From a virus, in the IMG/VR virus record IMGVR_UViG_3300027791_000130, positions 1 through 24,276 of that record: a DNA stretch of 24,276 nt; one strand, written 5' to 3'. The first letter of the stretch is position 1; the number at the start of each line of letters is the position of its first letter. Below, one piece after another: positions 1,737 to 24,068 of the stretch. The translations under genes and the position numbers were made by a program. The notes below the pieces were generated by a model. It was given only the letters and a program-made list of their open reading frames with translations. It made no database searches and had not been told where the DNA came from.

Positions 1737-2334
1737 AACCTTTTCTTTCAATATAATAATCTTTATTTGTAGGCATTAATGGGTCGTCTTCCCAAAACCT
1801 AGAAGACTTTTGTAACTCTAATATTAAGTTATTATCTTTCGCTAGTTTTTTTGCCTCATCTATATTATTTTCATTGTAATTAAATATTAAGTATTGCCAT
1901 TTAACTCTTTTTACTATTTTAGCAGCTATACACGCCATTTTAAATAGATGTTCGCCATCTTGGTTTATTCTATACTTATGACTATCTTTTGGTAGACCAT
2001 CTATACCAAATGTCCAGTAAGCATTTATGTTTGCTTCAAATGCCTTTTTATACCATTCTTCTTTTTTATGAGAGGCGGCTGTGTGTACAGTAACCTTTTT
2101 GTCTTTACACAGTTTTAAAAAATCTATAAATTTTGGATGAAATATAGGGTCTGATATCTGACCACAAAATGTTATTTCTTCAAAGAAATTTAATATCTTT
2201 TTAAAATTATCTATACTCATATCTTCACCTGGTACTCTTACACCTCTAGCGGCAAAGATAGCTCTGTTACATCTTTGACATTGTAAAGTACATCTATGTG
2301 TTATATCTAAATTTATTTTAGGAAATCTGGCCAT
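1714..2334 (-). CDS. Radical SAM protein, catalytic domain
   Basis: A 206-residue protein with the radical SAM cluster motif C15-TLQ-C19-QR-C22 (CxxxCxxC), preceded by NLDITHRC as is usual. The second-strand motif, normally GGEP, reads FCGQISDPIFHP, as in several radical SAM groups that use a GQ-x-x-DP variant. These enzymes bind a [4Fe-4S] cluster and SAM and start radical chemistry on peptides, sugars or nucleosides. I chose the ATG at 2334 because GGAG lies six bases upstream of it; an ATG at 2346 in the same frame would place that ribosome site inside the coding sequence. It overlaps the preceding radical SAM gene by 22 bases. The protein stops before its expected C-terminal SPASM domain, which continues in another frame at 1434-1736. 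Confidence 0.8.
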   Translation of the reverse strand: MARFPKINLDITHRCTLQCQRCNRAIFAARGVRVPGEDMSIDNFKKILNFFEEITFCGQISDPIFHPKFIDFLKLCKDKKVTVHTAASHKKEEWYKKAFEANINAYWTFGIDGLPKDSHKYRINQDGEHLFKMACIAAKIVKRVKWQYLIFNYNENNIDEAKKLAKDNNLILELQKSSRFWEDDPLMPTNKDYYIERKGYENRSKV

Positions 2335-3505: not shown

Positions 3506-4078
3506 ATGATTGATTATAGTATGTTGAAAGCGATATCCAAAATTAGTGATGACAAAAAGGTCAAGTCCATTGTTAATTCCCTAAATCCTAACCAAGAGAT
3601 TAGTAAGAATTGGTTGATAACAGAATCAATTAATTACTTTCAAATGTTTGAGAAACCAAAATTCTTGGTGGCAGCAGGATGGTATGGTAATCTAGCAAAC
3701 AAGTTGTTAGATTACGGAGAAGTATTATCGTTTGATAAAGATATAAATTGTGCTATAATAGGTAGAAAATTATATCCAAAAATTAAATTTAAAACTTATG
3801 ATGTGATTGATTATCGTAGTGTAAAAAAGTATGATGTGATTATCTGCACCTCTTGTGAACACATAAAACAAAATGTTTTAAATGATTTTATAAGTAGAAG
3901 AAGAAAAGATGATTCCATCGTAATTCTACAATCAAACAACTATACATCTTTGCCTGAACATATTAATTGCGTTAAAGATGAAAACGAGTTAGCAGATAAA
4001 ACAAAATTAAAAATGATACATTACAAAGGTAGTTTACAATGTGATGGTTTCAAAAGATTTATGGTTATAGGTGCTTAA
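3506..4078 (+). CDS. Class I SAM-dependent methyltransferase-like protein
   Basis: A 190-residue protein with a recognisable Rossmann methyltransferase core. KFLVAAGWYG at 52-61 is the glycine-containing motif I loop, LSFDKD around 74-79 gives the acidic residue at the end of strand 2 that binds the SAM ribose, TYDVIDY follows at 97-103, and YDVIICTSCEHI at 109-120 is the motif IV region. The AGWYG loop differs from the usual GxGxG but occurs in small phage methyltransferase-like proteins. It is the first gene of the plus-strand operon and its stop shares one base with the next start (TAATG at 4076-4080). The annotated start at 3506 has no visible ribosome site; an ATG at 3521 is an alternative. 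Methyl acceptor unknown; neighbours suggest a sugar or nucleoside intermediate (inference). Confidence 0.65.
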   Translation: MIDYSMLKAISKISDDKKVKSIVNSLNPNQEISKNWLITESINYFQMFEKPKFLVAAGWYGNLANKLLDYGEVLSFDKDINCAIIGRKLYPKIKFKTYDVIDYRSVKKYDVIICTSCEHIKQNVLNDFISRRRKDDSIVILQSNNYTSLPEHINCVKDENELADKTKLKMIHYKGSLQCDGFKRFMVIGA

Positions 4079-4863
4079 TGATTAAAATTTGTACAGTATA
4101 TTTTGAAGGTAAATATAGACCTGACTATGTAACAAAATTATATCGTAGTTTAAAAAGAAACTGTAAAGTGCCATTTGAGTTTATTTGTTTATCAGATACG
4201 AAAGATGTAGAAGCAGATAAAGTAATTATGTTACCTAAGTGGTCAGATATTAAAATTCATTGGCATAAATTAAAATTTTTTAGTCCTTTATTTGGCAATC
4301 AACAACCAGGTGATGATATTATTATAATGGACATTGACCAGATAGTTGTAGGTGATGTAACTAAAATGATTAACTGGCCTGTTGAAGAAAATGAAATAAT
4401 AACTTATAGAAAATGGTGGAAAAAAGGTGATCCAAATTCAGGCAATACAGTAAGATTAAATGGTGGTTGGTATAAATTTAAATCAGGCAGTTTAAAGTTT
4501 GTATGGGACGAGTTTAGTTTTTCAGAAAAAAGTAGAAATAAATGGCAATTACATTATTATAACAATGGTACTGTTCACTACAAATATTATGGAGAACAAA
4601 ACTATGTAGAAGATTGCTGTATAAGAAATAATGTAAAAATTACACATATGCCTGGGGAATGGGTATGTAAAATAAATAGTGAAGATGAAAGAAATAGATA
4701 TAATCAAATGCAATATATGAAATTATTTAATAAAGATTATATGATTTTAGATGAACCACATCCTGATATTAAAATGGTACACTTTGCAGGTGCTGAACCT
4801 GAGGATACAATACACGATTATACAGACAAGTTTGGTTGGATAAAAAAAAATTGGTATGATTGA
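4078..4863 (+). CDS. GT-A-type glycosyltransferase
   Basis: A 261-residue protein. IKICTVYFEGKYRPDYV at the N-terminus is the first strand of a nucleotide-sugar-binding fold, and IIIMDIDQIVVGD at 81-93 carries the DxD metal-binding motif (D85-I-D87) on the expected strand. Later LNGGWYKFKSG and KMVHFAGAEP segments resemble the acceptor side and the C-terminal histidine of glycosyltransferase families with a GT8-like layout. It probably transfers a sugar from a nucleotide-sugar donor in the cytoplasm; there is no signal peptide or membrane segment. It begins on the last base of the methyltransferase-like gene and ends 8 bases inside the first QueC-like gene. A shorter paralogue-like glycosyltransferase closes the same operon. 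The family is fairly clear; donor and acceptor cannot be read. Confidence 0.7.
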   Translation: MIKICTVYFEGKYRPDYVTKLYRSLKRNCKVPFEFICLSDTKDVEADKVIMLPKWSDIKIHWHKLKFFSPLFGNQQPGDDIIIMDIDQIVVGDVTKMINWPVEENEIITYRKWWKKGDPNSGNTVRLNGGWYKFKSGSLKFVWDEFSFSEKSRNKWQLHYYNNGTVHYKYYGEQNYVEDCCIRNNVKITHMPGEWVCKINSEDERNRYNQMQYMKLFNKDYMILDEPHPDIKMVHFAGAEPEDTIHDYTDKFGWIKKNWYD

Positions 4864-5494
4864 AGATACAGACAAGATAAGTATTAGTATTTCTGGTGGA
4901 TTAGATTCATCATTATTGACCTATTTGTTGTGTAAAGAAATATCAGACAATAATAAAAATACAAAGGTATATCCTCTACACGGTATAGACAACACAAGAC
5001 CTACATCACCAGAAAATATACAGAATATAATTAACTTTTTAAGAACATCTTTTCCAAATGTTGAAATAAAAGATATGTTAACTTGGGATAACACTAAAGA
5101 TGGTAAGAAACTTAAAACTTATAAGGATGCTGTTGGTATACAAAAATGGTGTTTAGAAAAAGATATTAGATATGTTTATCAAGGTAGAACATCAAATCCA
5201 CCAAAAGATGTATTAGATAATTTTGGCGGGTTTTATCAAAAAGAAAGATCACACGATAATAAAAAACCAACAAAAGAATTCATAAAAGAATTTAATGCTT
5301 ATTTAATTAGACCGTGGATTAATGTAGATAAAAAATATATCTATGAACAATATAAAAAATATAATTTATTAGATACACTAGAACCTCTTACTTGGAGTTG
5401 TATAGGTTTTGCTGAACAAACAAACTTTTTTACAAAACCTTGTAAAAAGTGTTATTGGTGTAAAGAGAAATATTGGGGATTTAACAAATACTAA
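4856..5494 (+). CDS. QueC-like PP-loop ATPase, copy 1
   Basis: A 212-residue protein. ISISGGLDSS places the PP-loop ATP-pyrophosphatase motif SGGxDS at residues 13-18. The C-terminus carries four cysteines, C182, C196, C199 and C202 (C-x13-C-x2-C-x2-C), with WSCIG before and WCKEKYWGF after. This is the zinc-site layout of QueC, the 7-cyano-7-deazaguanine synthase that adenylates a carboxylate and converts it to amide and then nitrile. Length is close to QueC (about 220-230). A QGRTSNPP segment at 109-116 is shared with the next gene. No other preQ0 gene is visible in the window, so the substrate may not be deazaguanine; a carboxylate-activating or amide-forming role on another molecule is possible (inference). 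It overlaps the glycosyltransferase before it by 8 bases and the next gene by one. Confidence 0.72.
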   Translation: MIEDTDKISISISGGLDSSLLTYLLCKEISDNNKNTKVYPLHGIDNTRPTSPENIQNIINFLRTSFPNVEIKDMLTWDNTKDGKKLKTYKDAVGIQKWCLEKDIRYVYQGRTSNPPKDVLDNFGGFYQKERSHDNKKPTKEFIKEFNAYLIRPWINVDKKYIYEQYKKYNLLDTLEPLTWSCIGFAEQTNFFTKPCKKCYWCKEKYWGFNKY

Positions 5495-6195
5495 TGATAG
5501 ATGTAAACAACGACATAGTTAAGAACTCTAAAAAAATATCAGTATCACTATCTGGTGGCGCTGACTCTGCTATATTATTTTACCACGCTTGTGATGTATT
5601 ACCAGATAGAACTTTTATACCTTGGTCAGGTTACGATACTAAAAGACCTGATAGTATTCTTTATGCAATGGAAGTTTATCAGTTTGTAAAAAATAGTTAT
5701 CCTAATGTAAATATTCTACCTCATCATACATTTAAATACACAACAGGAAAAGGCAAATTTCAAAATACTAAAAACTGGAATTGGAAACTAGACCCTAAAA
5801 GTGTAGCACACCACGAAGCTGAATATGAACTTTGGAAAAAACATAAATTTGATTTAACATTAAATGGTATGACTTCTAATCCTCCTGAAGACGCAATCAA
5901 AAAATTTAAAATGGACATTGACACAGGTCACGGAATTATAGAACCTAGAAGACATAGAGATAGACCAAAATGGTTATTAGATGGTTTTAGGCCTTTGTAT
6001 TTACCTTTTGTACAAGAAGATAAAAGTTATGTAAAAATGATGTACGAAAAATATGGTGTATTAGATACTTTATTTCCTTTGACGGCAAGTTGTATTGGGT
6101 TTCCAGATGAAACAGATAATGGTAAAAAACCTTGTAGAAATTGTGTGTGGTGTAAAGAGAGATTGTGGGCATTTGGAGAGGAACATTTACAATGA
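5494..6195 (+). CDS. QueC-like PP-loop ATPase, copy 2
   Basis: A 233-residue protein, a diverged paralogue of the preceding gene. The PP-loop motif SGGADS is at residues 20-25, the shared segment NGMTSNPP at 124-131, and the cysteines at C200, C214, C217 and C220 repeat the same C-x13-C-x2-C-x2-C spacing. DTLFPLTASCIGFP parallels DTLEPLTWSCIGF in copy 1. The middle third is longer and has extra charged residues (RRHRDRPKW near 152-160). Both ATP-binding and zinc residues look intact in both copies, so neither is an obvious decayed duplicate. They may form a heterodimer or act on successive substrates (inference). The start overlaps the previous stop by one base (TAATG) and its own stop overlaps the next start as ATGA. 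Confidence 0.72.
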   Translation: MIDVNNDIVKNSKKISVSLSGGADSAILFYHACDVLPDRTFIPWSGYDTKRPDSILYAMEVYQFVKNSYPNVNILPHHTFKYTTGKGKFQNTKNWNWKLDPKSVAHHEAEYELWKKHKFDLTLNGMTSNPPEDAIKKFKMDIDTGHGIIEPRRHRDRPKWLLDGFRPLYLPFVQEDKSYVKMMYEKYGVLDTLFPLTASCIGFPDETDNGKKPCRNCVWCKERLWAFGEEHLQ

Positions 6196-6764
6196 GATTA
6201 ATAGCAGTAAACACAGGTATTAAATTTGGCGAATGGTATGTAGATAATTTAAAACATATGATTGATAATTACTCTGGTATAAAATATGATAGTTTTGAAG
6301 TAATTAGAGATGAAAACTACGATAGTTGGTTTAATAAACTTCAAATGTTTGACAGGTTTAGAGATGGTCAAAATTTATATTTTGATTTAGATTTAGTTAT
6401 AAAAGGACCTTTGCCTAATTTATTAAGAAAAGATTTTACATTATTACACGCCTGGTGGAGAACACCAGATCATACACCTTTGAACTCTTCCGTTATTTCT
6501 TGGCAAGGTGACCAATCTCACATATATAAAAAATTTATAGAAGACCCAGAATATTATATGTTAAAATATAATCGTGGTATAGATCAGTTTCTATATGAGA
6601 ATATTGAGTATAAGACTTATGATAAAGTCTGTTATTCTATACGAGGTAAGGAATATGATAAAGAAGATACTGATTACAATATCTGTTTATTTAATCAAAG
6701 AAAAATATTAATGGAAGATGGTTGGGACGGTTGGTGGAAAAAATATTTTATTTCAACTTCATAA
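6192..6764 (+). CDS. Short GT-A-type glycosyltransferase
   Basis: A 190-residue protein from the ATG at 6192. That start is preferred over an in-frame ATG at 6165 because GGAGAGGA lies about ten bases upstream and the ATGA overlap with the preceding stop is typical for this operon. LIAVNTGIKFGEWYVDNL forms the first strand and helix, and YFDLDLVIKGPL at 63-74 holds the DxD motif (D65-L-D67) followed by the K/G-P pattern seen in small phage glycosyltransferases. Later segments ISWQGD and NRGIDQFLYE may bind the acceptor. At under 200 residues it is near the lower limit for a GT-A enzyme. It ends the plus-strand operon and runs 17 bases into the end of the convergent gene. Function as a sugar transferase is likely; the substrate is unknown. 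Confidence 0.65.
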   Translation: MRLIAVNTGIKFGEWYVDNLKHMIDNYSGIKYDSFEVIRDENYDSWFNKLQMFDRFRDGQNLYFDLDLVIKGPLPNLLRKDFTLLHAWWRTPDHTPLNSSVISWQGDQSHIYKKFIEDPEYYMLKYNRGIDQFLYENIEYKTYDKVCYSIRGKEYDKEDTDYNICLFNQRKILMEDGWDGWWKKYFISTS

Positions 6765-7224
6765 CAGCATTCAATACTTCAAATGGTGATTGTGCTTTTC
6801 TCATTTCTGATTTAACTACTGTATTGGTACTATTTTTAACAAACTCTTTTTCAAAAATAAACAACTTAAAGTTAAATAACATTTCTTTTCCTTTTTCTTC
6901 CGAGTAATCATAAATGAACTCAAATACTTCGTTGTAAAATGGAGTGCTTAATTCAGCAACAACTTCAGAAGCAAGTCTGTCTTCTTCAGCAATTTTCATC
7001 ACCACTTTCTTAAAGTTTTTCTTTGAAACTTTAATATAATTGTGTGTGTTTAGATGTATTTCATCTAAAGTGGTAATCGTCATCAAATTTTGCCAATCAG
7101 GATGTTTCGTATCGTGTTGTAGAATATGTGATATATTTTTATCACCATCTTTGTATAAAACCTCTACATTCTTTTTTTCATTGTCTATATAACGAGCAGT
7201 TATGTAATTGTCTTTAGTTATCAT
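6748..7224 (-). CDS. Unrecognised protein, 158 residues
   Basis: I do not recognise this protein. It is rich in Lys, Glu and Asp, has no predicted signal peptide or membrane segment, and contains no cysteine. The N-terminal part (residues 1-75) looks like alternating strands and has two His-containing segments, ISHILQHDTKHPDW and DEIHLNTHNY. The C-terminal half looks helical, with an aromatic segment FNFKLFIFEKEF near 115-126. It overlaps the epimerase start region by 11 bases, so the two are co-transcribed, and it ends 17 bases inside the convergent glycosyltransferase gene. The good coding continuity and coupling make it a real gene. A role tied to the epimerase or to virion assembly is equally possible. 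Confidence 0.7.
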   Translation of the reverse strand: MITKDNYITARYIDNEKKNVEVLYKDGDKNISHILQHDTKHPDWQNLMTITTLDEIHLNTHNYIKVSKKNFKKVVMKIAEEDRLASEVVAELSTPFYNEVFEFIYDYSEEKGKEMLFNFKLFIFEKEFVKNSTNTVVKSEMRKAQSPFEVLNAVMKLK

Positions 7225-7951
7225 AATTTTCCTTTAAGTAATCTAGTAAGTTAATCATAGGAGACCAACCTAATTTTTTTAATGTGCCTGGGTTTGCTGT
7301 ATTATCTTTTCTTTCAAATATTGTTCCCACTCTCTTATCTTTTATATCTATATTTAGATGTGAAAAAATATCAGGTAAAGTATTTGATATTCCTGTTCCA
7401 ACATCAACAACTTTTAGTTTTTCAACTTTGTGAACTATCAAACAACCTATTGCTGTTAATAAATCATCTATGTGTATAAAATCTCTAATATGATCTATAT
7501 TAATGTAAGATACATCATCTCTTAATATTTTTGGTATTAACATTTGTTCTCTAGCGCCTGGACCATAAACAGTTGTAAATCTCATACCTAAAGCGTTATG
7601 AGGTGCAATCTGTTCCATATAAAACTTACTCATTGCATATGGATTTCTCCAAGGTTCTTTTGCAGTAGATGAACTAGCGTATAAAATTTTAGGACCTTTA
7701 TCAAATTGTTTGAATACTCTATAACTTCCTACAACATTATTAGTCCAATATTCTGTGGGATTATCTAAACTATCTCTAACACCTGAAAGACCTGCAAGAT
7801 GTATAACTAAATCTACATCATAGTCTAAATTGCAAGTAATTAAATTATTACCTGTTTTCTTATCTAAACATATGAGATTGTGTTTGTCTTTTAAAAAAGA
7901 CTGAATGTGTTGACCAATAAAGCCTTCACTACCTGTTAATAATATATTCAT
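7214..7951 (-). CDS. NAD-dependent sugar epimerase/dehydratase (extended SDR family)
   Basis: A 245-residue protein. The N-terminus shows the Rossmann NAD(P) motif GSEGFIG (G7-x2-G10-x2-G13), then HLAGLSGVRDS near 51-61. The catalytic set is present: Ser93-95 in YASSST and Y105-x3-K109 in NPYAMSK. RFTTVYGPGAR and the later RDFIHIDDL are the usual substrate-side motifs of UDP-galactose 4-epimerase/GDP-fucose-type enzymes. These interconvert or dehydrate nucleotide sugars in the cytoplasm. The protein is shorter than the usual 310-340 residues, mainly because loops in the C-terminal substrate domain are compact. It would supply an activated sugar to the nearby glycosyltransferases (inference). 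A GATAAATA box lies just upstream. Confidence 0.82.
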   Translation of the reverse strand: MNILLTGSEGFIGQHIQSFLKDKHNLICLDKKTGNNLITCNLDYDVDLVIHLAGLSGVRDSLDNPTEYWTNNVVGSYRVFKQFDKGPKILYASSSTAKEPWRNPYAMSKFYMEQIAPHNALGMRFTTVYGPGAREQMLIPKILRDDVSYINIDHIRDFIHIDDLLTAIGCLIVHKVEKLKVVDVGTGISNTLPDIFSHLNIDIKDKRVGTIFERKDNTANPGTLKKLGWSPMINLLDYLKENYDN

Positions 7952-7961
7952 AATATAATTC

Positions 7962-7969
7962 TATTTATC
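7962..7969 (-). promoter_or_regulatory. Late-promoter-like box GATAAATA (variant) before epimerase gene
   Basis: The minus strand carries GATAAATA about ten bases before the epimerase ATG at 7951, overlapping the last base region of the upstream fibre-like gene. It is one base away from TATAAATA, the same variant as at 3482-3489. Position supports it; sequence alone is weak in AT-rich DNA. Confidence 0.35.
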
Positions 7970-8901
7970 TAACTTTTAAGTATCCTTAAATAGTATGTTT
8001 CAACAGTTTGCGCTGTACCATTTGGAAATTCTTGTGATCTATAATCATCACCAACTTGTCTTGTTTGATAATCACCTGATCCATTTAATACTGTATTTGC
8101 AATACCAGTACCTCTATTAGTACCTAATCCACTTGTTCCTAAATTGTAAGAAATTTTATAACCCTCTGCTGAAGATGTTGCAGTCTGTCTAACCCAACCT
8201 TGTAGTAAACTTTCAAATGTTGAACTTGTATAAGTTTGTAAATCATTATCTGATCTAATATGTAATGGTTGTGTATAAGAATTATTATTACCAGTTAATC
8301 TATGCAAGTAATAACTATTAACCGTAGTTGGATTATCTAAAGCGTGTGATCCAATTGTACCTGATGTATATGCTGAAATATCTGCTTTAGTATCTACAAA
8401 AATAGGAGTATTAGAAACTAAAGTACCACCTGCTAAAGATGAGTTACTATGTATTGTGTAAGTACCACCTTGTAAAGCATTCTGCGTACCTGCACTTAAT
8501 AAATCTATTGCAGGATGTAAAAAAGTATCTTTAACATCTTGCAAATTCATTGCTTGAATATTACCAGAGTTTGAAAAAACAGGAAAAGTTATTCCTGTAT
8601 CTGTCGTTGGAGTTGAACCTGTATTTGTACTTGAAATTTTATCATAAGATACAGTAATTGTTTGAGGTTCTTGTGTTGTTCCTTCGCCAGGAAATGATGT
8701 AGAACTATTTGAAACTGCACCAGCTTCTAATCTTGTATCAGTCATACCACCTAATGATCCACCTGAACCTACTACTGATAAAACTACGCTAGGACTTAAT
8801 GAGTATTGATAAACACTTTGGTTAACAATTTCTGTGACCATCGCTGTGGTCATTTCTTTTATGTTACCTGAATCTAAATATAGAGGTTTTCTGACAGCCA
8901 T
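7969..8901 (-). CDS. Virion structural / fibre-like protein, 310 residues
   Basis: A Ser/Thr/Gly-rich protein of 310 residues. The opening MAVRKPLYLDSGNIKEMTTAM followed by IYQYS-like VYQYSLSPSVVLSV resembles the N-terminus shared by a family of structural proteins in T4-like marine phages (recollection, not checked). The rest is low in charge, rich in short beta-prone segments and lacks cysteine, as expected for a fibre or neck appendage. It ends with YYLRILKS. GGAGAT lies seven bases before the start, a good ribosome site. It is the last gene of the structural series, 15 bases after the 251-residue fibre-like gene. It could form part of the tail or a baseplate appendage; the exact position in the particle cannot be read. 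Confidence 0.6.
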   Translation of the reverse strand: MAVRKPLYLDSGNIKEMTTAMVTEIVNQSVYQYSLSPSVVLSVVGSGGSLGGMTDTRLEAGAVSNSSTSFPGEGTTQEPQTITVSYDKISSTNTGSTPTTDTGITFPVFSNSGNIQAMNLQDVKDTFLHPAIDLLSAGTQNALQGGTYTIHSNSSLAGGTLVSNTPIFVDTKADISAYTSGTIGSHALDNPTTVNSYYLHRLTGNNNSYTQPLHIRSDNDLQTYTSSTFESLLQGWVRQTATSSAEGYKISYNLGTSGLGTNRGTGIANTVLNGSGDYQTRQVGDDYRSQEFPNGTAQTVETYYLRILKS

Positions 8902-8916
8902 TATATATCTCCATTT

Positions 8917-9672
8917 TTAGGTAGCCGATCCTACTATTCTTTTAACCTCTGATCCTGTAGAATCGTAAATTACTAGTGTTGATGTTGACGCAAATATTGA
9001 ACCTGTTGCGTAAGAAGTTGTATTAGTTAAGGCAACTATTCCGTCGGCGTCTGGAAGACTAATTGATCTAGTTGCAGTCGGGTCAGTTACAGTTAATTTT
9101 GTATCAAAAGAATTGTCTGTCGCACCTTCAAAAAATAAGTTTTTACTTAATCCCATAAAGATTGAAGAACCGAATACTGTAAATCCTGATGATGATTCAA
9201 TGTTATTTCCACCTGTTGGGTTAATTGTTGTAACCCCTGCTTTTAATCCATCTGAAATTTCAACTGTCGGAGAATTAGTTGAACTAATTTGATTTCCACT
9301 AATTTGTATTGTTCCTAATGTACTAATAGAACCTAATACAGTAAACGCATTTGGTATTTGTACATTATTTGGAAAAGAAAATGTAATAGTATCTGGTACT
9401 GTTACAACAGATTGTATTTGATTAGCAGTACCTAGTACAGTTAAGGTATCTCCACCACCAACAAGTTGAACAGTTGAGGTATCGTCAGCAATTGTAAAAC
9501 CAGAACTTGATGTTGCAATACTAATAGTTTCGTTCATAGCGTCAACTAAATTAGTTGCACTAATAGCTGCTGACAGATTTGCAATATCACCAAAATCTTG
9601 TTGTGATAAAGCATTAAATGTTGTTCTAAATAATTCTAGTGTATCTGTTTCTGCTATTGTTTTAAATGCCAT
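8917..9672 (-). CDS. Fibre-like virion structural protein, 251 residues
   Basis: A 251-residue protein low in charge and rich in Thr, Ser, Ile and Gly. The N-terminal part ETDTLELFRTTFNALSQQ, then GDIANL and LVDAMNE, is a short helical pattern found at the start of many marine T4-like fibre proteins, thought to anchor them to the particle or trimerise them (recollection). The middle is made of repeated strands of the type TVLG-x-STLGTIQISGNQIS, as in beta-helical fibres, and TRSISLPDADGIVALT near 208-223 resembles fibre modules in other phages. It begins on the last bases of the coiled-coil gene (TAATG) and precedes the 310-residue fibre-like gene. Probably a receptor-binding or accessory fibre subunit (inference). 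Confidence 0.6.
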   Translation of the reverse strand: MAFKTIAETDTLELFRTTFNALSQQDFGDIANLSAAISATNLVDAMNETISIATSSSGFTIADDTSTVQLVGGGDTLTVLGTANQIQSVVTVPDTITFSFPNNVQIPNAFTVLGSISTLGTIQISGNQISSTNSPTVEISDGLKAGVTTINPTGGNNIESSSGFTVFGSSIFMGLSKNLFFEGATDNSFDTKLTVTDPTATRSISLPDADGIVALTNTTSYATGSIFASTSTLVIYDSTGSEVKRIVGSAT

Positions 9673-9899
9673 TAGTTTTTACCTAAGTTTTGTATTAACT
9701 CTTTAATTTCTCTTAATTCTGTCTTCAGATTATTTATATCTTTTACTGCACTTCTAATTTGATCTCCTTGACTTTCTCTTGCCTGAACTCTTTTCATATA
9801 AAGTTGATATTCAGTTTTATTAGTTTGTATAATAGCATTTGAGTTAGTATCTCGTACTAGACTTTCAAATCCTTCAACTTTTAAATATTCTTTACTCAT
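9672..9899 (-). CDS. Small coiled-coil protein
   Basis: A 75-residue charged protein lying between the giant DUF4815-type gene and a fibre-like gene, sharing bases with both (TAATG junctions at each end). The C-terminal 30 residues, with INNLKTELREIKELIQNLG at 53-71, show Leu/Ile every three or four positions, the heptad pattern of a coiled coil. The N-terminal half has no recognised motif. Size and place suggest a small structural or chaperone-like protein assisting fibre assembly or attachment, but nothing in the sequence proves this. The overlaps make it very likely to be a real translated gene. Confidence 0.65.
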   Translation of the reverse strand: MSKEYLKVEGFESLVRDTNSNAIIQTNKTEYQLYMKRVQARESQGDQIRSAVKDINNLKTELREIKELIQNLGKN

Positions 9900-12800
9900 T
9901 ATACTGCCAATGCAATTCCTCTCATATCTCTTATAACAGGTGGGTATGATGAATTAGTACCTTTCATAACTATTTTAATTTGAAAAGCAGTAAATTCATT
10001 TAATCCACTAGCAGAGTATTTGTATTCTCTAAATGTTGTATTATCTTCAGCAGGTGTAATAGATAAGTCTTCTTTACCTGTTGTGTTGAATGGAATCCAA
10101 CTTAAATCGTCTATGCTTCTTGCCTCTTCGGAAGATGTTGTTCTAAAATAAACTTCTACACTTGAAGTTGCTCTTATATTTGAAGTTAATCTTATATCTA
10201 AAGCAGTTGTGTTGTTTTCTAATATAACTGGTCTAGTTAAGTAAACAGCAGCAGTTGATGTTCCTATATTAGTTGTATCTGAAATATAATCTACATCACT
10301 TACACTAGGATTGTTTAATCTATTTTGAATTGTAAATGCACTACATCTTTGTAAATCAAGTACAGGAGAAACTTTTGTGTTTGAAGTTGTCATAGAACAA
10401 TTTACAAATAAAGATTTACTACCTGACATCTCATTTGTTTCATTTATTGAACTCGCAACCATTCTAGGTGCTGTAAAGTAAATATTATCATTTGCGATAA
10501 CATTTATAGAACTAGCAGCAGATGTTAGAGAAAATTCTGATTCACTACCATTTATTGATCTACCTGTTGTAGGTCTCATAGAATAAGCAATATTTGTTCC
10601 AGGAACAGTCATAGTTTGTAAACTTAAATTCATTACATCATATAATCTGTTTTGTGTTGCTGTTACAGCAATACCACCAATATCTCCAGCAGTATTTGGA
10701 TTTACAATTGATCCTGTGAAATTGGAATTGTGAGTTGGATTAATGTCATAACTATTTAAAGTTACATTTGAAATTTGAGTATATGTTCCATTAATTTGAT
10801 CTGAAGTTAAACCATTTAAAGCGGCACTACTAGGAACTCCTAAAATAGTTACATTATTATTTGTTCCGTGCATACCGTGATTAGGATGCGAAACTCTAAT
10901 AACTGCCGTACTATCAGGCAATGTTCTTAGCGGATTATTCTTTAAAGTTTTTACAGATAATGCCTCGTTAGTTAAAGTTGCTGTTCCAGTTACATTACTA
11001 AACTCAGCACGTTTCATTTTGAATTTAACATCTTCATTTTGTTCAGCAGTCCAAGTTGAACCATTTTGAGATTTAAACATAACACCTGCGTAAGGTTGTT
11101 GTGATATTGTTCTATCAGAACCCAATACTTTTTCTCCTAGTCTTCCGACATAAGCAGTATAGTTGTTTGAGTTTGCTAATAATACAAAACAGTATTCTGT
11201 ATTTTCTTGTAAGTAAACAGGACTGTCAAAAGTAAATGATGTTGCTACTGAAGCGTCTGTACTTACATTTACTAAATTTGGATTTATAGTTTTTTCTGAA
11301 AAAGGTAATATTGTTGATCCAGGATAACCATTTACAACTTCTCTTATTTGCATAGTTATTGGAATGTTGGCGTCTTTTGTACCAAAGAAAATATCAGTAG
11401 AAGTTAAGAACACACCACCAGCGTCATCAATCATAAATGTTTGTGCTAAAGGATCAACCCAACCAATTGTTCTACTAGATTGTCTTGTTGACACTCTATT
11501 AATTGTTCTATTAGATGTAGTGGAATTTCTTTCAAGTTGTGGTTCTCTTGTAGAAATAATTGTATTCTGTACAGTTTCTAAAATACCTCTAGCAACATAA
11601 TCTGATTCTGCTGAAGTTTCAACATCATTTCTTGTATCGTTTTGAGAACTTGTTAATCTGAATACTCTTGTACCTGTTCTCCATCTAGGATTTGTATCAA
11701 CAGCAGGATCAGGTATTACAAATGTACCTGATACTGAACCATTTGCGTCTGTATCTAAATTTGCACCAGATAATGGAGTTACATATGAAGCAATAGCTAT
11801 CTCGTCAAAGAAAGCATAAACTCTAGTATTTGGTTTCATTCTAGTTGCAACAAAATTAATTGTTCTACTTCTTACGAATGGAACAAATGCAACATTAACA
11901 ATTCTATCTCCAATTGAATTTCTTACAGTTTGAGGTACTAGTCTTTGTCTAACACCTGTTCTTGTTTGGTTAACTGATTGTTGAGTAGTTATTTCTGTAT
12001 TTGTAAATACTCGTCTACCACTTCGTCTAGCACCACCTACATCTCTTTGTGAAACATCAGCAGGCGAACCTGTCCAAAAGTCTTGCCATTCGTTCCAAAC
12101 ACTACCTATTTCTATACCTTGATTTTGTTGGTCAGCAGGCAAACCTGAAACCATACTATCAAACGCACCTATATTATTAATTACTAATTCAGGTGCTCTG
12201 TTAGTTTCTTTCCACTCGTCTGATGGTGGAGTTAATGCAACTGAACCTGCCCAATTAAATACATCAAATGGATTTACATTGACAGTCTTACTTGCGAAAG
12301 GTTGATCTATTAAAGTTGATTCTGTGTATGGTAAAGTAATACAATCACCAGTCTTTTGATAATTTGCTGATGTTCTATCTGCAGGCAATATAGCAGTACC
12401 GTCTTCATCACTTTCAATTAACTTAACGGCATCCTCATTGAAAGTAGGTCTTAATTCACCTTTTGCCATATCCATAGCGGCTTTGTAATCTCTATTTTTT
12501 ACATCACCTATATTGTGTCCTGTAAAGTTATCTACAACAAATCCATTTTTAAATCTGTCAAATCCTTGTGCGTCTTGTATTTGTAAACTTTGAGCATTTG
12601 ATTCTAGTAAAGACAATTGAGTATAGTATTCTACATTTTCAAGTCTATTTTCTAGGTTACCAATATCTCTCATTGTGTATCTTTTGTTATCAACTTTTTT
12701 GATTGTTATATCTTCAGTTGATAATGTATAAGCAGGAATTTCTAAAGTGTATAGGTGCATAGCGCCATCTAAAGATTTCGGTACTTGTGGGTCTAAAGAA

Positions 12801-16005: not shown

Positions 16006-17502
16006 CTAAAATTCTATAACTAGTTTAATATTTTCCGTTTGATCTGTTGCTCTTTGTATCGGTGTTCTATTCTCAATATAAAGTACATCTCCAGAATCGT
16101 GATCTATTTCAGGAACTGAATATCCTGAAGTAAACGAAACATTATTAACTGTTGTTGAAACAGATATATCAGGTGTACCTGTCGGTGATCCGCCACCTTG
16201 ACCTGTAATAACATTAACGCCTGAAAACGCAGTTTGATTACCATTACCATCTACGCCGGCATCGTTGTGTCTTGTTTGTATGTAATATAAAATTTTGTTT
16301 GTTGCGTCCCACTCTACAACTTTACCAGTTGCACCTGTACTTGCCTGATTAATTTCTTCATCAGCAGTAAATGTTCCTGGAGTTGGAGAAGTAGCAATTT
16401 TAATTGCCTTTGTTAATCTAGCAGTATTAGCAGTTACAGCAGAAGCAGATTTTGTTGGGTCTCTTAATAATGCAATTTTTCTAAAATCATTTACAGCAGA
16501 AAAGTCACCTGAGTTTGCACTTTCAGTTCCTTCTAAACTTGTATTCATCATTACAAAGAAAGCACCTAATTCTTCTTGTGCGTTTGCACCGTGACCACCT
16601 TTAGGAGGAATAATAACATCTAATTCAGAACCTGCTAAACTAGTTGCACCAGCAGCAACTATTTGTGCATTACTGATTGTTGCAAAAGTATAACCTGTAC
16701 CTTGTGTAGTTATTGCTACTGAAGTTATAGTACCACCGGCTACTACTACTGTAGCAACTCCACCAGAACCGTCTCCTCTAATAGGAATACCAGCAAATGT
16801 TCCGTTAGTTCCACCTGAACCACCAGTTTTAATTTTTACTATGTCTATTGAACCGTTAACGGCAGCAGAAATAACATTTGATTGATCTGAACTTGCACCA
16901 GAGTTTGGTGAAACTGCCATAAAGTCTATTGATAAAAAATTTGATTGTTGAGCAGCAGAAAGTGTGTACATAAATTTCCACTTATATGAATCAGTAGTTG
17001 TAATTACTGAAGTTGAAACACCAGTTGGTTCATCTGTTGCAGTAGCACCACCGTTGTTATCTAAACATTTGTAAACATTTCTAGCAGCAGTTAATACATA
17101 AAAAGTAGAATCAAATAAAGTAGTTGCACCACTTGTTGATGTTTTTCTTACACTTGTTGAACCTGTTGTATATTCTCCAATGTCGTGTGAATAAGTATCG
17201 TATATTATACCTGCTGTCCAATTTCTTCTTGGTATTACAAAAGATATATCTGACGATTGTATTCTTTTAGCAGCAATTAAATCGTCAAATGTATAAAATT
17301 CTCTAGCGACAGTATCGCCTGGTGTATTAGGAGCAGCGTCCGTACCTTCGTAATCTGTTCTACCATCAGCTCTTGTTAAAGTACCAAAAGGTTGTGGTCT
17401 TCCTATACCTAAGTAATACACTTGATTTGCAGTTTCAGAAAATGATTCTGAAAACTGTTCAGCATTGTTTAGTCTAAATTTATTTGTTATAATCGCTGGC
17501 AT
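16006..17502 (-). CDS. 8: Baseplate wedge protein gp8
   Basis: A 498-residue protein that lines up from memory with T4 gp8 at both ends and in the middle. AIITNKFR at the start corresponds to gp8 AIVTSKFR; VIPRRNW near 89-95 to VIPRRDW; VYKCLD to VYRCLD; DSYKWKFMY to DGYVWEYLF; and the C-terminus GDVLYIENRTPIQRATDQTE to gp8 GEMIYMENRPPIIMAMDQTE. In T4, gp8 dimers join gp10, gp7, gp6 and gp53 to form the baseplate wedge. The protein is longer than T4 gp8 (334), mainly through a glycine-rich insertion around 195-400 that includes a GTGY segment and one repeat of the type shared with the neighbouring proteins. AAGGA precedes the start and an exact late promoter box lies upstream. It ends 11 bases before the DUF4815-type gene. 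Confidence 0.85.
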   Translation of the reverse strand: MPAIITNKFRLNNAEQFSESFSETANQVYYLGIGRPQPFGTLTRADGRTDYEGTDAAPNTPGDTVAREFYTFDDLIAAKRIQSSDISFVIPRRNWTAGIIYDTYSHDIGEYTTGSTSVRKTSTSGATTLFDSTFYVLTAARNVYKCLDNNGGATATDEPTGVSTSVITTTDSYKWKFMYTLSAAQQSNFLSIDFMAVSPNSGASSDQSNVISAAVNGSIDIVKIKTGGSGGTNGTFAGIPIRGDGSGGVATVVVAGGTITSVAITTQGTGYTFATISNAQIVAAGATSLAGSELDVIIPPKGGHGANAQEELGAFFVMMNTSLEGTESANSGDFSAVNDFRKIALLRDPTKSASAVTANTARLTKAIKIATSPTPGTFTADEEINQASTGATGKVVEWDATNKILYYIQTRHNDAGVDGNGNQTAFSGVNVITGQGGGSPTGTPDISVSTTVNNVSFTSGYSVPEIDHDSGDVLYIENRTPIQRATDQTENIKLVIEF

Positions 17503-17539: not shown

Positions 17540-19156
17540 TTAAGTTATGTTAATTGTTCCTAACATAGCTGCGTGTGATGAACATTGATAATACAATGTT
17601 GCTGGGGCATCCATAGGCACGTGAAACTCAACAACACCAGTAGATCCTGAAGCATTGTTATTAGTAACGCCTGTGCTATATGCACTTCCACCAGCAGTTG
17701 ATCTAATTTCAAAAGGGTGACCACTACTTGTATTTCTAAAGTAATAAGTTTGACCTTTCTTTATATGTAAATCTGGATTGTCTCCACTTGTACCTGCTGG
17801 AAATCCTGCACCATCAAATCTATATGCACTTGAACCGTTAGCAGTTACTACAAATTGAGATACTGGAGTTTGTCCTATAACCCAACCTGAACCAGTGTAA
17901 ACTAAAGTATGTCCGTTTTGAGGAGAAGATACTGCTACATCTGTTAAATCGTTAATTGCAAGTGAACCACCTGCAGGAGTACCGACATTAAATCTTCCTT
18001 GTGCTGAACTCCAAGCCAAAACGTGACCATCTGCAACACCAGACATATTAACATCTGTGTGTGTAGAAACGGAAGAGTTTTCATCTAATATTCTAACCCA
18101 ACCACTTCCAGTAGAATAGTAAGGTCTGTTACCTGTACTATCATAAGCATACATTCCTATATAAGTTGCAGCTGACGGTAAAGAGCCATAACCTGCAAAA
18201 TCAAATCTCATTTTAGAACCTGCACCAGTTAAATCTGCTGTACCTGTTCCTGATATTGATGATGTACCAGTTAGACTAAAGTTTGATGCTGTACTTAATG
18301 TTGCACCTAAATTAACAATACTATTACCAATTGTAATTCTATTATTGTCTAAAGAAGCATTAGGAATATTTCCTACAGTTAAAGTTATTCTATTGTTATC
18401 AATAGCAGTAGAAAGTCCTGCACCACCAATAATTTCAAAACTTTCACCTAGACCAACATTAAAGTTAGTTGAAGTATCATCACCTATTGTGATTGTATTG
18501 TTTACAAGTTTGTCATTTGTAATAGAACCTGTTAATTGAGCATTTGTAATTGTTCCTGATAATGAACTTGTAGGATAATTTATTGCGTCTGCTAAATCAA
18601 AAGCAGGAGTAGCGTCTGTGTCACCTAAGGCAAGTGTTACTAAACCATATGATACAGTATTATTCGCTAAAGAATTATTAGCAATATTTGTTAATGTATT
18701 GTCAGGACCATTAATTGTTTTATTTGTAAGTGTATCAGTAGATGTTTCTGTTAAAACTGCACCGTCTATAGCAATTGAAACTTTGTCTGCTGTTACAGCA
18801 GTTGTAATTCCTAGACCACCTTCAATAGTTAAAGTATCGCCTAAATCTACTGCTGAAGTAGCAGAACCATCACCTGTAATAGTGATAGTTGAATTATCTA
18901 ATTTTGTATTTGGTATACTTGCTAATGCACTACTTGGAATATTTTGTATTGTATTTGTACTACCATTAATTGTTTTATTTGATAAAACTGAACTGGAAGA
19001 GTCTGTTATATAATTACCAGAAACTAGAGTAGTACCATCACCTAAAACACCATATAATTCGTCAAAATTATCATTTATTTTGGCTGCACCTGCTCTTAAA
19101 TTATCGCCTGTTCCATCGTTGGCAGCTGATCCTTTATTTAAGGTTTTTTTTGTCAT
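17540..19156 (-). CDS. gp10/gp9-type baseplate protein with C-terminal cupredoxin-like domain
   Basis: A 538-residue protein in three parts. Residues 8-41, with NDGTGDNLRAG and KINDNFDELYGVLGDG, closely match the N-terminal segment of T4 gp10 (DDGTGDYLRKG and KINENFDELYYELGDG) and, less closely, gp9; this segment attaches those proteins to the baseplate. Residues 50-320 are strand repeats such as SNKTINGSTNTI and TNKTINGPDNTL. Residues about 433-538 resemble a cupredoxin: YYFRNTSSGHPFEI with H480, then YYQCSSHAAMLG with C525, H528 and M531. That His, Cys-x2-His-x2-Met set has amicyanin-like spacing, so a type 1 copper site is possible. An exact late promoter lies upstream and AGGA precedes the start. 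It is probably an exposed baseplate pin or fibre; the domain may be only a fold for binding (inference). Confidence 0.75.
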   Translation of the reverse strand: MTKKTLNKGSAANDGTGDNLRAGAAKINDNFDELYGVLGDGTTLVSGNYITDSSSSVLSNKTINGSTNTIQNIPSSALASIPNTKLDNSTITITGDGSATSAVDLGDTLTIEGGLGITTAVTADKVSIAIDGAVLTETSTDTLTNKTINGPDNTLTNIANNSLANNTVSYGLVTLALGDTDATPAFDLADAINYPTSSLSGTITNAQLTGSITNDKLVNNTITIGDDTSTNFNVGLGESFEIIGGAGLSTAIDNNRITLTVGNIPNASLDNNRITIGNSIVNLGATLSTASNFSLTGTSSISGTGTADLTGAGSKMRFDFAGYGSLPSAATYIGMYAYDSTGNRPYYSTGSGWVRILDENSSVSTHTDVNMSGVADGHVLAWSSAQGRFNVGTPAGGSLAINDLTDVAVSSPQNGHTLVYTGSGWVIGQTPVSQFVVTANGSSAYRFDGAGFPAGTSGDNPDLHIKKGQTYYFRNTSSGHPFEIRSTAGGSAYSTGVTNNNASGSTGVVEFHVPMDAPATLYYQCSSHAAMLGTINIT

Positions 19157-19195: not shown

Positions 19196-21793
19196 TTATG
19201 GGGTTGTATCATCAAAAGTTAATGTTGTTTGAGCAAAGTTTGTAACAGTATTATCAAAAACATCCTGAGAAGCCGCAAATTGCGTAGGCATTGCAAAATT
19301 TGTCTTTAATAACTGACCATCTTTATTTGAAGTTGCTAAAAATATAGCACCTCTTCCATCTAGTGATGTTCTTGTACCTTGTATTGTTATTTCACTTAAT
19401 TGCTTAAATGTTATTTTACTTGCACCTGAATTTACACCAAATATTGTATTTGCGAATTTGTTTAGTGTACCAAATTTAGGTCCTGCATATGCGTATCCTG
19501 ATTTAACTTCTACACCATCAATTTGTCTTCTTACTCTACTTAAATAACGAATTTCAATTGGTGGTCTTTGTAAAGTTACATCTCTTGTATTTGCCGTAAA
19601 CGGATCTTCATAAGCATTACCAACATCTATTTCTCCATCAATATGAGCACTAGGTCTTAAACTTGTACCGTCATCTATTGTTCCTAATCTTCTTCCAAAG
19701 ACAGTAGTAAATAATATATTTAATACATTGAATAATGGAGTATCTAAAGCACCTGATACAATACCAGCAACTGGCGCCCGAACTTGCATATTAATTCTAT
19801 TAACTAAATCAACTTGTCCTGTAAAATAAAAACCTGCTGTGTGCATAGTCTTTTTAAATGAGTCTCTCCAATCATTAATTGATTGACCAACTTTTAGTAC
19901 ATAAGAAAAATCTTGGTAATATTTACTGTCTTGTACTTTCATAGTTTGTTCAGATACATAACCATCTTCATTTAAAAATTTACCATCTGTATCTACAACA
20001 GTAACAGATTGTACCGAAGCAGACGCAACATCTAATCTTGCTATTGTTGCTGATCCACTACCTGTTGATGTTATTGTTTCGTTTAGAACAAAATTGTTAT
20101 TTAAATCTTTTACTTTTAACAATTGTGTGCCTGCGTCATAACTAGCAAGTTTACCAACAGCACCTGAAGTACCGCCTGTAATAGTATCATTAGCATTAAA
20201 GTTGCCTGACTTGTTAGTTAGTAATAAACAGTTTCTAAATTTAATTGTTGGAGATGGACTGTTTTGATAACCTTCTCCTAATTCATTTGTTTTTAATCCT
20301 ATAACTCTTCCTATATCAGTACCGTTTGCTAAAACATTTGCACCTGTACCACTTGAAGTTATAGATACTTTTGGTAAAGATACATAACCACTACCTTGAT
20401 TAATTAAAAATATATCTGTAATATCATTTAAGTCTGTATTACTTGCTGGTTCCATAACAATTTTATTATTAAAGTAAATATCACCTCTACCTGTTTCATC
20501 TTCATATACAATATGATCTTCTCCGTCTGTTCCTGGTGTTCCTGACTCTTGTGTAAATCCACCATTAACAACAGAAACAATTCCTTCTGCATTAACACCT
20601 TTTGTATTTGAGTTATCAAAAACTAATTTATCTCCTACTGAATAACCTGATCCTGGATTGTCAACAATAATTTCATTTACTTGTCCTGAACCTATATCAC
20701 TAATAGCAATATCAGCACCTACACCACCACCTAATACAGTTAAGAAATCTCCAGTAGAATATAAACTACCATCATTAGTAATAGTTTTTGTTCCAGGTAT
20801 ACCTGTTATGTTACATTTTATAAAAAAGTCATCTGTATCACTAGCAGTACCTTTAATTTCTTCATTAACAACAAAAGTACCTGTCATTGAATTTATATTA
20901 AGTACAAATTCAGAAACTTCTTTATTTCCGATAACAAATTTTTTAATACTTTCTACTACAGCAGTTGCTGCTGAGTCTGAACCTGTAATTGTTCTACCTA
21001 CTAAATTAGTTGTATCACCTACTGTTGCAATTGCTCTTAAAACTTTTTGTGTGTCCCATTGTCCATCTGATACACGCAACATTTGTGTTCTTGGATAAAA
21101 TGTTTCTGATACTTGATTAAATAATATTCTAAAAAATAATTCGTGCCCTGCTTGTGTACCTTTTAGTCGGTACATTGATTTAATGTTTTTTATTAAATTT
21201 CTTTTGTCTAGTCCTAGTGCTAAAGTTTCAGGTATTGTTTTTAAAAACTCATCTCTAAAGTTTGTTAAGAAATTTGATATTACTTTATCAGGATCTCTAA
21301 AGTTTGTTAAGTCCTGAACAGTTGTTACGGGATTAGGACGATAGTCATTAATTATTGCTTGAGCACCTGAAGTGTTACCTGTTATAGTTTCATTTAAACC
21401 AAACTTGTCTTGTGCTGTTATGAAAATTTTATTATTTGCTAAATCTTCAGCAACAATTTTAGCAGTTGCCTTAGAATTTAATCCTGTGATTGTTTCACCT
21501 ACTGTGAATTGACCAAATGATGAATCTTCGTAAATTAATTTATCTCCAATATCTAGTTGTGTTCTTTCTGAAGATATTTTTGAACCATCTAGTAATAAAT
21601 TATCTGATAGACCGGTTTCATTTTCTAAAGCAATACCGTCTGTTGATTCAATACTTGTAACCTGCAACATAGCAGATTCCATAAATTGATAATAAGTTTT
21701 TAAGAATTGAACAAACTGTGGGTGGTCATCAACTACGAAATCAGGTAATTGACTATTAATAAGTGTTGAGATTTTATCATTAAACTTTGCCAT
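19196..21793 (-). CDS. 7: Baseplate wedge protein, gp7-like
   Basis: An 865-residue protein located, as in T4, directly after gp6. Several segments match the C-terminal third of T4 gp7 from memory: HPQFVQFLKTYYQFME (24-39) with gp7 FEAFCEAYIQYLSDG; YRLKGTQAGHELFFRILFNQ (208-227) with STKGIEASYKFLFKVLYNE; VSDGQWDTQ and NLVGRTITG (263-271) with SDSLTEDLVGQTI; and DWRDSFKKTMHTAGFYF with SRWKSDVIRFVHPVGFGF. In T4, gp7 forms the wedge with gp6, gp8, gp10 and gp53. The N-terminal two thirds of T4 gp7 seem absent, and a long repeat-rich insertion with GExITGxxSxA copies (about 99, 134, 266, 309, 535, 571) and GSGY strands is present. It starts six bases after gp6 ends. Confidence 0.75.
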   Translation of the reverse strand: MAKFNDKISTLINSQLPDFVVDDHPQFVQFLKTYYQFMESAMLQVTSIESTDGIALENETGLSDNLLLDGSKISSERTQLDIGDKLIYEDSSFGQFTVGETITGLNSKATAKIVAEDLANNKIFITAQDKFGLNETITGNTSGAQAIINDYRPNPVTTVQDLTNFRDPDKVISNFLTNFRDEFLKTIPETLALGLDKRNLIKNIKSMYRLKGTQAGHELFFRILFNQVSETFYPRTQMLRVSDGQWDTQKVLRAIATVGDTTNLVGRTITGSDSAATAVVESIKKFVIGNKEVSEFVLNINSMTGTFVVNEEIKGTASDTDDFFIKCNITGIPGTKTITNDGSLYSTGDFLTVLGGGVGADIAISDIGSGQVNEIIVDNPGSGYSVGDKLVFDNSNTKGVNAEGIVSVVNGGFTQESGTPGTDGEDHIVYEDETGRGDIYFNNKIVMEPASNTDLNDITDIFLINQGSGYVSLPKVSITSSGTGANVLANGTDIGRVIGLKTNELGEGYQNSPSPTIKFRNCLLLTNKSGNFNANDTITGGTSGAVGKLASYDAGTQLLKVKDLNNNFVLNETITSTGSGSATIARLDVASASVQSVTVVDTDGKFLNEDGYVSEQTMKVQDSKYYQDFSYVLKVGQSINDWRDSFKKTMHTAGFYFTGQVDLVNRINMQVRAPVAGIVSGALDTPLFNVLNILFTTVFGRRLGTIDDGTSLRPSAHIDGEIDVGNAYEDPFTANTRDVTLQRPPIEIRYLSRVRRQIDGVEVKSGYAYAGPKFGTLNKFANTIFGVNSGASKITFKQLSEITIQGTRTSLDGRGAIFLATSNKDGQLLKTNFAMPTQFAASQDVFDNTVTNFAQTTLTFDDTTP

Positions 21794-21799
21794 AGGACA

Positions 21800-23641
21800 T
21801 TAGTAACTTGATGTTGTTGTGTACCCTACTCCTGCTTCGGCAGAACCACCTACAAAGGTATCTTGTGAAACATTTACGATTGAATTTGAAACATCTATTT
21901 CTAAAATTTGATCTCTTACTGGAACAACATCATTTGAATTAGGTGGTACAGTTAACTCAATTGCTGTTGAAATTGCACCTCTAACATTAGCAATGGAGGC
22001 AACATCTAAAGAATTAAGAGTTATTTGTCCTGTTGAATAATCAACTGTTCCTTGTTTAGCATTGTGAATAGTTTTAATACCACTTACTAGATAATAGACT
22101 CTAACATTTCCCATACCATCATCATCTAAAAACATATCATTAGTATTTCCTGATACTTTAAATCCAGTAGATGTAATTACTGATTGGTGTCCTGAATGAG
22201 GATTGTAAATTGCATTTCTAAAGTAAATATCATATTTTGTAGATGAACTTAAAGTTGGTGTAAATGATTTTCTCATTTTGACCGTTGTTATGTTTGATAA
22301 AATTGAATTATCAACATCATCTACTAATCCTGTTATTTTTGAAAATCTAAACACACCATCAAATTGAGATAATGTATTTGAATTGTAATTTGTTATTGCG
22401 TCCACAATTTCTGACTTCAAAGTGTCTGCTGATTTAGCAGTAGAGTCTTTATCAAACTTTGCGTTAACAACTAATACGATTGAAGTAATTATTGGATCAA
22501 TTATCTCTGGTCTTACCGAAGCAACATTGTAAGATTTTAATTTTGTTACTATATCTAGTTTTGTTGCATTAGTTAAAGGAACACCTGATTGTCCTTTGAC
22601 AGCAATTTTAACAACACCATAAACAGGTGTTTCATCATCTTCACCACCCCAAGCACTTATTGATTTTGCATTAGGATAAATTGATTTTACTAAAGTTTCG
22701 TAATCTGTTGTAGTAACTGCTCTGTCTTGTGATGTGTATTGTAAAGGTGCATTAAATCTAATTGACTCTTTTGTTTCTGGAATAGAACCGCCTTGTGCTG
22801 CTGTTTTAGTTACAACAGTTACATCTGAAAATCCACCTACTGAACTTTTTGGTGTAAATTTTGCTGTACCATTTGCGTCTGTTAAATTTGAAACTATATA
22901 TTCTAAAGTTACAATATTACCATCTGCTAATTTTTTACCTAGTATATCATCTCCAAAGTAAACTTCAAATTTACCTGTATCTGATTCTGATAAAAAATAT
23001 GCCTTTGATGTATTGTTTAAACTTTTTAATCCTGTTGCTAATGTGTAAACACTTTCTGTTGTATCACTAATAGAAGTTTGTACAGTTACTTTTAATGTAG
23101 TTGTGTCAGCATTTATATTAGGAATTATATATTTTTGGTCAACATCTGTACTGTCAACTGTATATTTAAAGTTTACTAAAGTACCTTCATATAAAGTTAC
23201 ATCTGAAAATTTATAAACACCATCAGCAGGTGACATTGCTATATCTTCATTAGTTACAAAACTATAATCTGTGTTATCTATATTTGCTGAAAATGATGTT
23301 CCTTTATCCATAGTAACTGAAGCACCTGTTCCTTTGTTAATAGTTATATCAACATTTGCTGTTGGTGCTTTAGCTGATGACGGAGTGTATCCTAACATCT
23401 TTGCTAATGAAACTACATTTTTTCTAACATCAGCAGAGTCTAGGTACATTTCATTTGCAACCATATTAGCATTGAAACCTAGATAGTGTGTGTTGTATGC
23501 TAATGTATCTAACAAGACAGCAAAACCTGAACCTTCAAAATTGTAATCTGAAAACTCTGGTTGATCTTGTAAAAATGATTTTAAATTTTCTTTTATTGCG
23601 TCAAAATCTAAATCTGATACTATAAATTTATTACTTGCCAT
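21800..23641 (-). CDS. 6: Baseplate wedge protein gp6
   Basis: A 613-residue protein close in size to T4 gp6 (660). FDAIKENLKSFLQDQPEFSD, YNFEGSGFAVLLDTLAYNTH and the following NMVANEMYLDSADVRKNVVS with LGYTPSSAKAP correspond to T4 gp6 FAEIKQNLIEWL, YDFEGSRLNVLCDLLAYNT and LRSSVVQAA with GYLPTS. It belongs to the gp6/baseplate J-like family. gp6 dimers form the inner ring of the baseplate and hold the wedges together. The central region (about 100-300) is strand-rich with a TTTDYETLVKSIYPNAKSIS segment near 300-320 that is typical of baseplate J-like proteins. It begins two bases after gp25 ends, with only a weak AAGAT ribosome site, so it is probably coupled to gp25 translation and shares its late promoter. 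Confidence 0.88.
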   Translation of the reverse strand: MASNKFIVSDLDFDAIKENLKSFLQDQPEFSDYNFEGSGFAVLLDTLAYNTHYLGFNANMVANEMYLDSADVRKNVVSLAKMLGYTPSSAKAPTANVDITINKGTGASVTMDKGTSFSANIDNTDYSFVTNEDIAMSPADGVYKFSDVTLYEGTLVNFKYTVDSTDVDQKYIIPNINADTTTLKVTVQTSISDTTESVYTLATGLKSLNNTSKAYFLSESDTGKFEVYFGDDILGKKLADGNIVTLEYIVSNLTDANGTAKFTPKSSVGGFSDVTVVTKTAAQGGSIPETKESIRFNAPLQYTSQDRAVTTTDYETLVKSIYPNAKSISAWGGEDDETPVYGVVKIAVKGQSGVPLTNATKLDIVTKLKSYNVASVRPEIIDPIITSIVLVVNAKFDKDSTAKSADTLKSEIVDAITNYNSNTLSQFDGVFRFSKITGLVDDVDNSILSNITTVKMRKSFTPTLSSSTKYDIYFRNAIYNPHSGHQSVITSTGFKVSGNTNDMFLDDDGMGNVRVYYLVSGIKTIHNAKQGTVDYSTGQITLNSLDVASIANVRGAISTAIELTVPPNSNDVVPVRDQILEIDVSNSIVNVSQDTFVGGSAEAGVGYTTTSSY

Positions 23642-23642
23642 A

Positions 23643-24068
23643 TTATCTTAATCTTTCTAAAAATGTTTCTACGGTTACAGGTTGACTTGATCCAACAACA
23701 TAAAACATAATCTTTAATGAGTAACTGTTTCTATCAATATCAGGATTTGCTAATACTTGTTGTAAATCAATTCTTGGTTCAAAATTATTTAATACTTCAG
23801 CAACCTTTCTTTGTAAATTTAGAGCAGTTAATGGTGTCATTGGTTCAAACAACATTGCTCTAACATCACTTCCTATTTCAGGATGAAAAGGTCTCTCATA
23901 ATGATTTGTGTTAATTAAATTTCTAACACTTCTTTTGACTGCCTCTACATCTGTTAAATTGTTAACATCATTTGTAATAGGATTACGACCAAAGTTTAAA
24001 TCTAAATCTTTGTATATTCTGTTTGCTCTTTTAGAGTTATTGGTTGTGCTAGCATCGTAGTTTGACAT
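23643..24068 (-). CDS. 25: Baseplate wedge protein gp25
   Basis: A 141-residue protein of the gp25-like family, close to T4 gp25 in size (132). The core has DLDLNFGRNP near 21-30, VEAVKRSVRNLI near 41-52, NHYERPFHPEIGSDVRAMLF near 55-74, and the family's conserved EPR motif at E97-P98-R99 in NNFEPRID. gp25 forms the wedge core with gp6 and gp7 and helps nucleate sheath assembly; its homologues occur in type VI secretion systems and contractile bacteriocins. A late promoter box lies nine bases upstream with an AAGAGAT ribosome site directly before the ATG. The PAAR protein upstream and gp6 downstream are the standard neighbours. Confidence 0.92.
   Translation of the reverse strand: MSNYDASTTNNSKRANRIYKDLDLNFGRNPITNDVNNLTDVEAVKRSVRNLINTNHYERPFHPEIGSDVRAMLFEPMTPLTALNLQRKVAEVLNNFEPRIDLQQVLANPDIDRNSYSLKIMFYVVGSSQPVTVETFLERLR

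Follow-up and report, generated by a model that had tools for sequence, protein, structure and literature searches.

Amicyanin (TIGR02657; PDB 1sfd, 1aac), the periplasmic electron carrier of methylamine dehydrogenase, is a cupredoxin whose chain ends one strand after a Cys-x2-His-x2-Met loop, and plastocyanin, of the plastocyanin/azurin family (PF00127, Copper-bind), is a free electron carrier with a Cys-x2-His-x4-Met spacing. Known type 1 copper proteins mostly acquire their copper outside the cytoplasm, whereas phage tails are assembled inside it. In phage T4, each long tail fibre is seated on a trimer of gp9. A metal has been proposed in the phage adsorption apparatus in the form of iron, bound by HxH motifs in T4 gp37 and in the tail fibres of marine phages (PMC11705849). 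In the gp37 type, the iron is held by pairs of His in a trimeric fibre, whereas the site that we describe would hold copper within a folded cupredoxin.

The window that we analysed is a stretch of DNA of 24,276 nucleotides from a marine virus of bacteria (IMG/VR record IMGVR_UViG_3300027791_000130), and the protein of interest is a 538-aa product encoded on its minus strand (17540..19156). Based on its sequence and a structural model, we propose, with a probability of roughly 0.62, that this protein is a fusion of a gp9-like connector and a cupredoxin domain whose type 1 copper site is of the amicyanin type, and that this site putatively binds copper and, more tentatively, has a stabilising role. 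The domain shares with amicyanin the fold, the Cys-x2-His-x2-Met loop and the end of the chain one strand later, but it is part of a virion protein rather than a periplasmic carrier and has a longer insertion ahead of the Cys strand. With the plastocyanin/azurin family it shares the fold and the types of ligand, the loop being Cys-x2-His-x2-Met instead of Cys-x2-His-x4-Met.

The identity of the larger protein is well supported. PF07880 (T4_gp9_10_N) scores 36.7 bits, against a cut-off of 25, at the N-terminus (residues 3-116; 18809..19150, minus strand), phrog_677 ('baseplate wedge tail fiber protein connector') matches the whole protein with an E-value of 5.7e-67, and the gene lies inside a cluster of baseplate genes, all of them on the minus strand: the next gene encodes a gp8-like baseplate wedge protein (16006..17502; PF09215, phrog_438), and on the other side are a baseplate wedge protein in the gp7 position (19196..21793; PF23786, Baseplate_wedge, with names that vary in PHROGs), gp6 (21800-23641; PF21379, phrog_219) and gp25 (23643-24068; PF04965, phrog_261). 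The nearest cultured relative of this gp6 is that of Pelagibacter phage Mosig EXVC030M, at 64.9% identity. Both the N-terminal domain and the gene order are shared with T4 gp9 and with the cyanophage proteins annotated as 'baseplate wedge tail fiber connector' (PF07880, phrog_677), the latter ending in the same cupredoxin as the window protein. The original prediction of a baseplate protein is thus borne out, whereas its placement of the protein at the virion tip is not: because T4 gp9 is the socket of the long tail fibre, a gp9-type connector is probably no tip.

This position bears on one alternative, namely, that copper acts as bait and the loaded site docks the phage on a copper-uptake receptor or a copper protein of the host. 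We know of no such receptor, the tip is not where a gp9-type connector would be expected, and at an E-value threshold of 1e-4 a cellular relative occurs in only 1 of 61 genomes of the Prochlorococcus family. The domain does sit on the adsorption apparatus, and an analogous iron Trojan Horse hypothesis has been put forward for tail fibres (PMC11705849); on balance, we regard the bait model as very improbable.

Elsewhere in the window, two adjacent radical SAM-type proteins (1714-3473, minus strand; one of 386 aa that exceeds the cut-off with 46.5 bits, and one of 210 aa that falls short of it with 26.4 bits) adjoin a match to Asp_Arg_Hydrox (576-1019). Two tandem PP-loop/QueC-like proteins whose C-terminal Cys motifs are related (4856-6195, plus strand) are flanked by weak glycosyltransferase-like open reading frames (4078-4863 and 6165-6764), and a nucleotide-sugar epimerase is encoded at 7214-7951 on the minus strand (PF01370, 84.2 bits; phrog_540).

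Modelled by AlphaFold with 32 homologues, the last ~108 residues of the connector form a compact, all-beta domain with a mean pLDDT of 92.7. The span first assigned to it, 17543-17860, did pick out the C-terminal domain, and we set its bounds to 17543-17866 on the minus strand (residues 431-538). All 50 of the PDB matches listed by Foldseek are cupredoxin-fold proteins (best E = 1.9e-5), including rusticyanin, the purple cupredoxin of Nitrosopumilus, amicyanin, plastocyanin and pseudoazurin, as well as copper nitrite reductases, laccases and oxidase subunit II. The TM-scores of these listed matches are modest (0.46-0.59), which counts against our preferred explanation. The model is a Greek-key beta sandwich like the solved cupredoxins, as had been predicted, and the first His lies just ahead of a strand, the Cys closes the next-to-last strand, and the second His and the Met sit in the loop preceding the final one. 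In known cupredoxins, the His, Cys, His and Met have this same layout relative to the strands. In a model of residues 300-538, the domain is confident and the stretch upstream is of low confidence, such that the model says nothing of how the domain is mounted on the connector. Structure matches in BFVD include 'beta-sandwich proteins' from giant viruses (A0A481Z7Q7, A0A481Z6J5 and A0A481YWX9; Pithovirus, Marseillevirus).

Homology to copper proteins can be recognised in the sequences, most clearly when the family is considered as a whole. With a profile built from 30 diverse domains, amicyanin is the first match in the entire PDB (E = 1.4e-5), and the matches with E-values up to 1, 51 in total, consist entirely of cupredoxins and of enzymes that contain cupredoxin domains. 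(A search of the PDB with a single sequence returned only chance matches to globins, and the first profile, A1, only borderline matches; the more diverse set of domains was needed.) In the amicyanin alignment, the Cys-x2-His-x2-Met loop is aligned without gaps and in register. The likeness to amicyanin noted in the original prediction therefore stands for these three ligands and for the top-ranking relative, but the first His is two residues off the amicyanin ligand in the HMM alignment; it is in register in a multiple alignment with Prochlorococcus plastocyanin.

The curated models are not reached by the window domain itself. Against PF00127, the isolated domain scores 20.2 bits and the whole protein 16.5 bits, where the gathering cut-off is 21.2, and against the amicyanin model TIGR02657 the domain scores 14.8 bits, where the cut-off is 110.2; because both cut-offs were failed, we assign the domain to the cupredoxin superfamily only. 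Among its homologues, 20 of 32 match PF00127 at E-values up to 0.1. A bridge to known copper proteins is provided by an exported-looking protein of Prochlorococcus MIT 9201 (L317/L318), which the phage profile scores at 78.9 bits, placing it in the family of the window domain, and which, with 29 bits, passes the Copper-bind cut-off that the window domain narrowly misses. Read from the sequence, its gene apparently lies among ordinary cellular genes. This protein and L319, of the same strain, are two exported-looking paralogues with plastocyanin-like loop spacing, and L319 has a Thr at the Met position. The At5g54830-like domain (PF25489) matches 11 of the 30 diverse members (best E = 1e-5); an exported relative from Marinifilum scores 25.6 bits, under the cut-off of 27, and the window domain itself has no match at an E-value of 0.1.

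The four putative ligands lie exactly where they had been placed in this 538-aa minus-strand reading frame: His480, in the motif GHPFEI (17717..17719), Cys525 (17582..17584), His528 (17573..17575) and Met531, the putative axial ligand (17564..17566). The domain thus has the ligand set of type 1 copper proteins, i.e., His, Cys, His and Met with a known spacing. Chance can be dismissed as the origin of the motif, in that Cys-x2-His-x2-Met arises in only 0.06% of shuffles of the 108 domain residues and the complete set of four ligands is present in 194 of 200 distinct full-length domains. Since Cys525 is the only cysteine in the protein, it cannot form an intrachain disulfide; an intermolecular one is possible.

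Two alignments, with members that share 28-98% identity with the window domain, have few invariant columns, and the four ligands occupy some of these. The 200 domains, a sample drawn mostly from near the query family, revealed a pattern of all or none: besides the 194 with the full set, two domains keep one ligand and four keep none, and no domain keeps two or three. Any given ligand is missing from about 3% of the domains, and if such losses were independent, we would expect about 20 domains to be short of a single ligand. All of the ligand-poor copies derive from only four records, i.e., from a handful of events to which no formal probability can be attached, and few such copies turned up even when deliberately sought. 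Because search patterns that bear the motif could themselves select for it, the search was repeated with a query that lacked the C-terminal motif (but still included the first His), and every distinct match reaching that far still has Cys-x2-His-x2-Met. The homologues are therefore not freely losing their Cys and His residues, and the view that ligand retention argues against a structural relic gains support, in that the loss of ligands as a set is what would be predicted of a metal site and not of a relic of the fold.

Cultured phages conform to this pattern. Full-length domains with the complete set occur in Syn9, P-SSM2, P-GSP1, P-HM1, Mosig, Melnitz-2, S-SCSM1 and an actinobacterial phage, the exceptions among the isolates that we read being an additional Syn9 copy that has no ligands and an S-CAM1 copy that lacks the Cys-His-Met end. 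In Syn9, the wedge gene adjoining gp9 (open reading frame at 6331-10491 of locus L301) bears one more cupredoxin copy, which is divergent and has HP and Cys-x2-His-x2-Met, as well as another copy without ligands. In the C-terminal copy found in L236/L256-L258, the first His, the Cys and the second His are replaced by S, S and D, and the Met is kept; by its residues, this copy is a candidate for a natural metal-free control.

These data also weigh on the possibility that the cupredoxin fold serves only as a sandwich for binding proteins or glycans, its four residues being structural and holding no metal. Like known binding sandwiches, the domain is modular and occurs at differing places in tail proteins; moreover, little copper would be on offer during assembly in the cytoplasm, and residues with no ligand role (e.g., P51, G66 and Y93) are invariant as well. 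Against this, the ligand sets are retained or lost en bloc, related cellular proteins pass Copper-bind, and because there are copies without the four ligands, the fold evidently has no need of them. We therefore consider a metal-free role to be unlikely. Less likely still is that the site holds a different metal in the virion, such as zinc, in a purely structural role. The side chains of Cys, His and Met are able to hold metals besides copper, and the bacterial cytoplasm offers zinc more readily than copper; however, structural zinc sites rarely use Met, and the combination of Cys, His, His and Met with the amicyanin spacing is typical of copper.

The most likely interpretation is that the domain represents a type 1 copper-binding module that virion tails have put to renewed use, with the following putative role. 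It would bind copper through His480, Cys525, His528 and Met531. The protein begins as other gp9 proteins do and has no evident export signal, which suggests that the connector is made and folded in the cytoplasm of the host and that the domain probably assembles in its apo form. Copper would then be taken up at lysis or from seawater, by virtue of the high affinity typical of type 1 sites. More tentatively, the metal might lock and stabilise a surface-exposed module for fibre docking or adhesion, analogous to the iron in the fibre tip of T4 gp37. Because no redox partner is evident, we favour such a module over electron transfer, which is the less likely function. The functional roles suggested in the original prediction are at most consistent with these data. 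Further points count against the copper-site explanation: the window domain scores below the Copper-bind cut-off, tails are assembled in the cytoplasm, and a few copies of the domain have lost the site.

By tblastn, the domain is present in 354 of 50,697 phage records, almost all of them from cyanophages and the remainder from a few Pelagibacter, Methylophilales and other marine or freshwater phages; none of the 354 is a coliphage. It is C-terminal in 112 complete open reading frames and not C-terminal in 61 (the gp9 homologue of Mosig, for example, carries it internally), and there is usually one copy, with a maximum of four. The stretch of HTVC008M that holds its baseplate cluster has no such domain. 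Among bacteria, exported-looking proteins bear the domain (e.g., L165, L167 and L176).

A literature search pairing cupredoxin with cyanophage, baseplate, tail fiber and phages, beyond whose scope most subscription papers lie, returned no description of the domain. Taken singly, neither the fold nor the ligand set nor the host gene is new; it is their combination that is undescribed in the literature searched, and public databases may already flag the fold. Our analysis offers a concrete identity for a domain that has been buried in proteins named 'hypothetical' or 'tail fiber connector'. It is conceivable, if still rather speculative, that the tails of marine T4-like phages, especially those of cyanophages, contain type 1 sites loaded with copper that serve adsorption or virion stability; were gp9 arranged as six trimers, as it is in T4, each particle would have 18 such sites. 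Should copper indeed be bound, many marine cyanophages and related phages would be metalloprotein particles whose adsorption apparatus bears a redox-active metal, and a copper counterpart to the iron 'Trojan Horse' would be directly testable in cultured phages, such as Syn9 and P-SSM2. Phage adsorption would then be tied to trace-metal chemistry: virus particles bearing copper-loaded tails would be copper ligands in the sea, and the supply of copper would affect infection.
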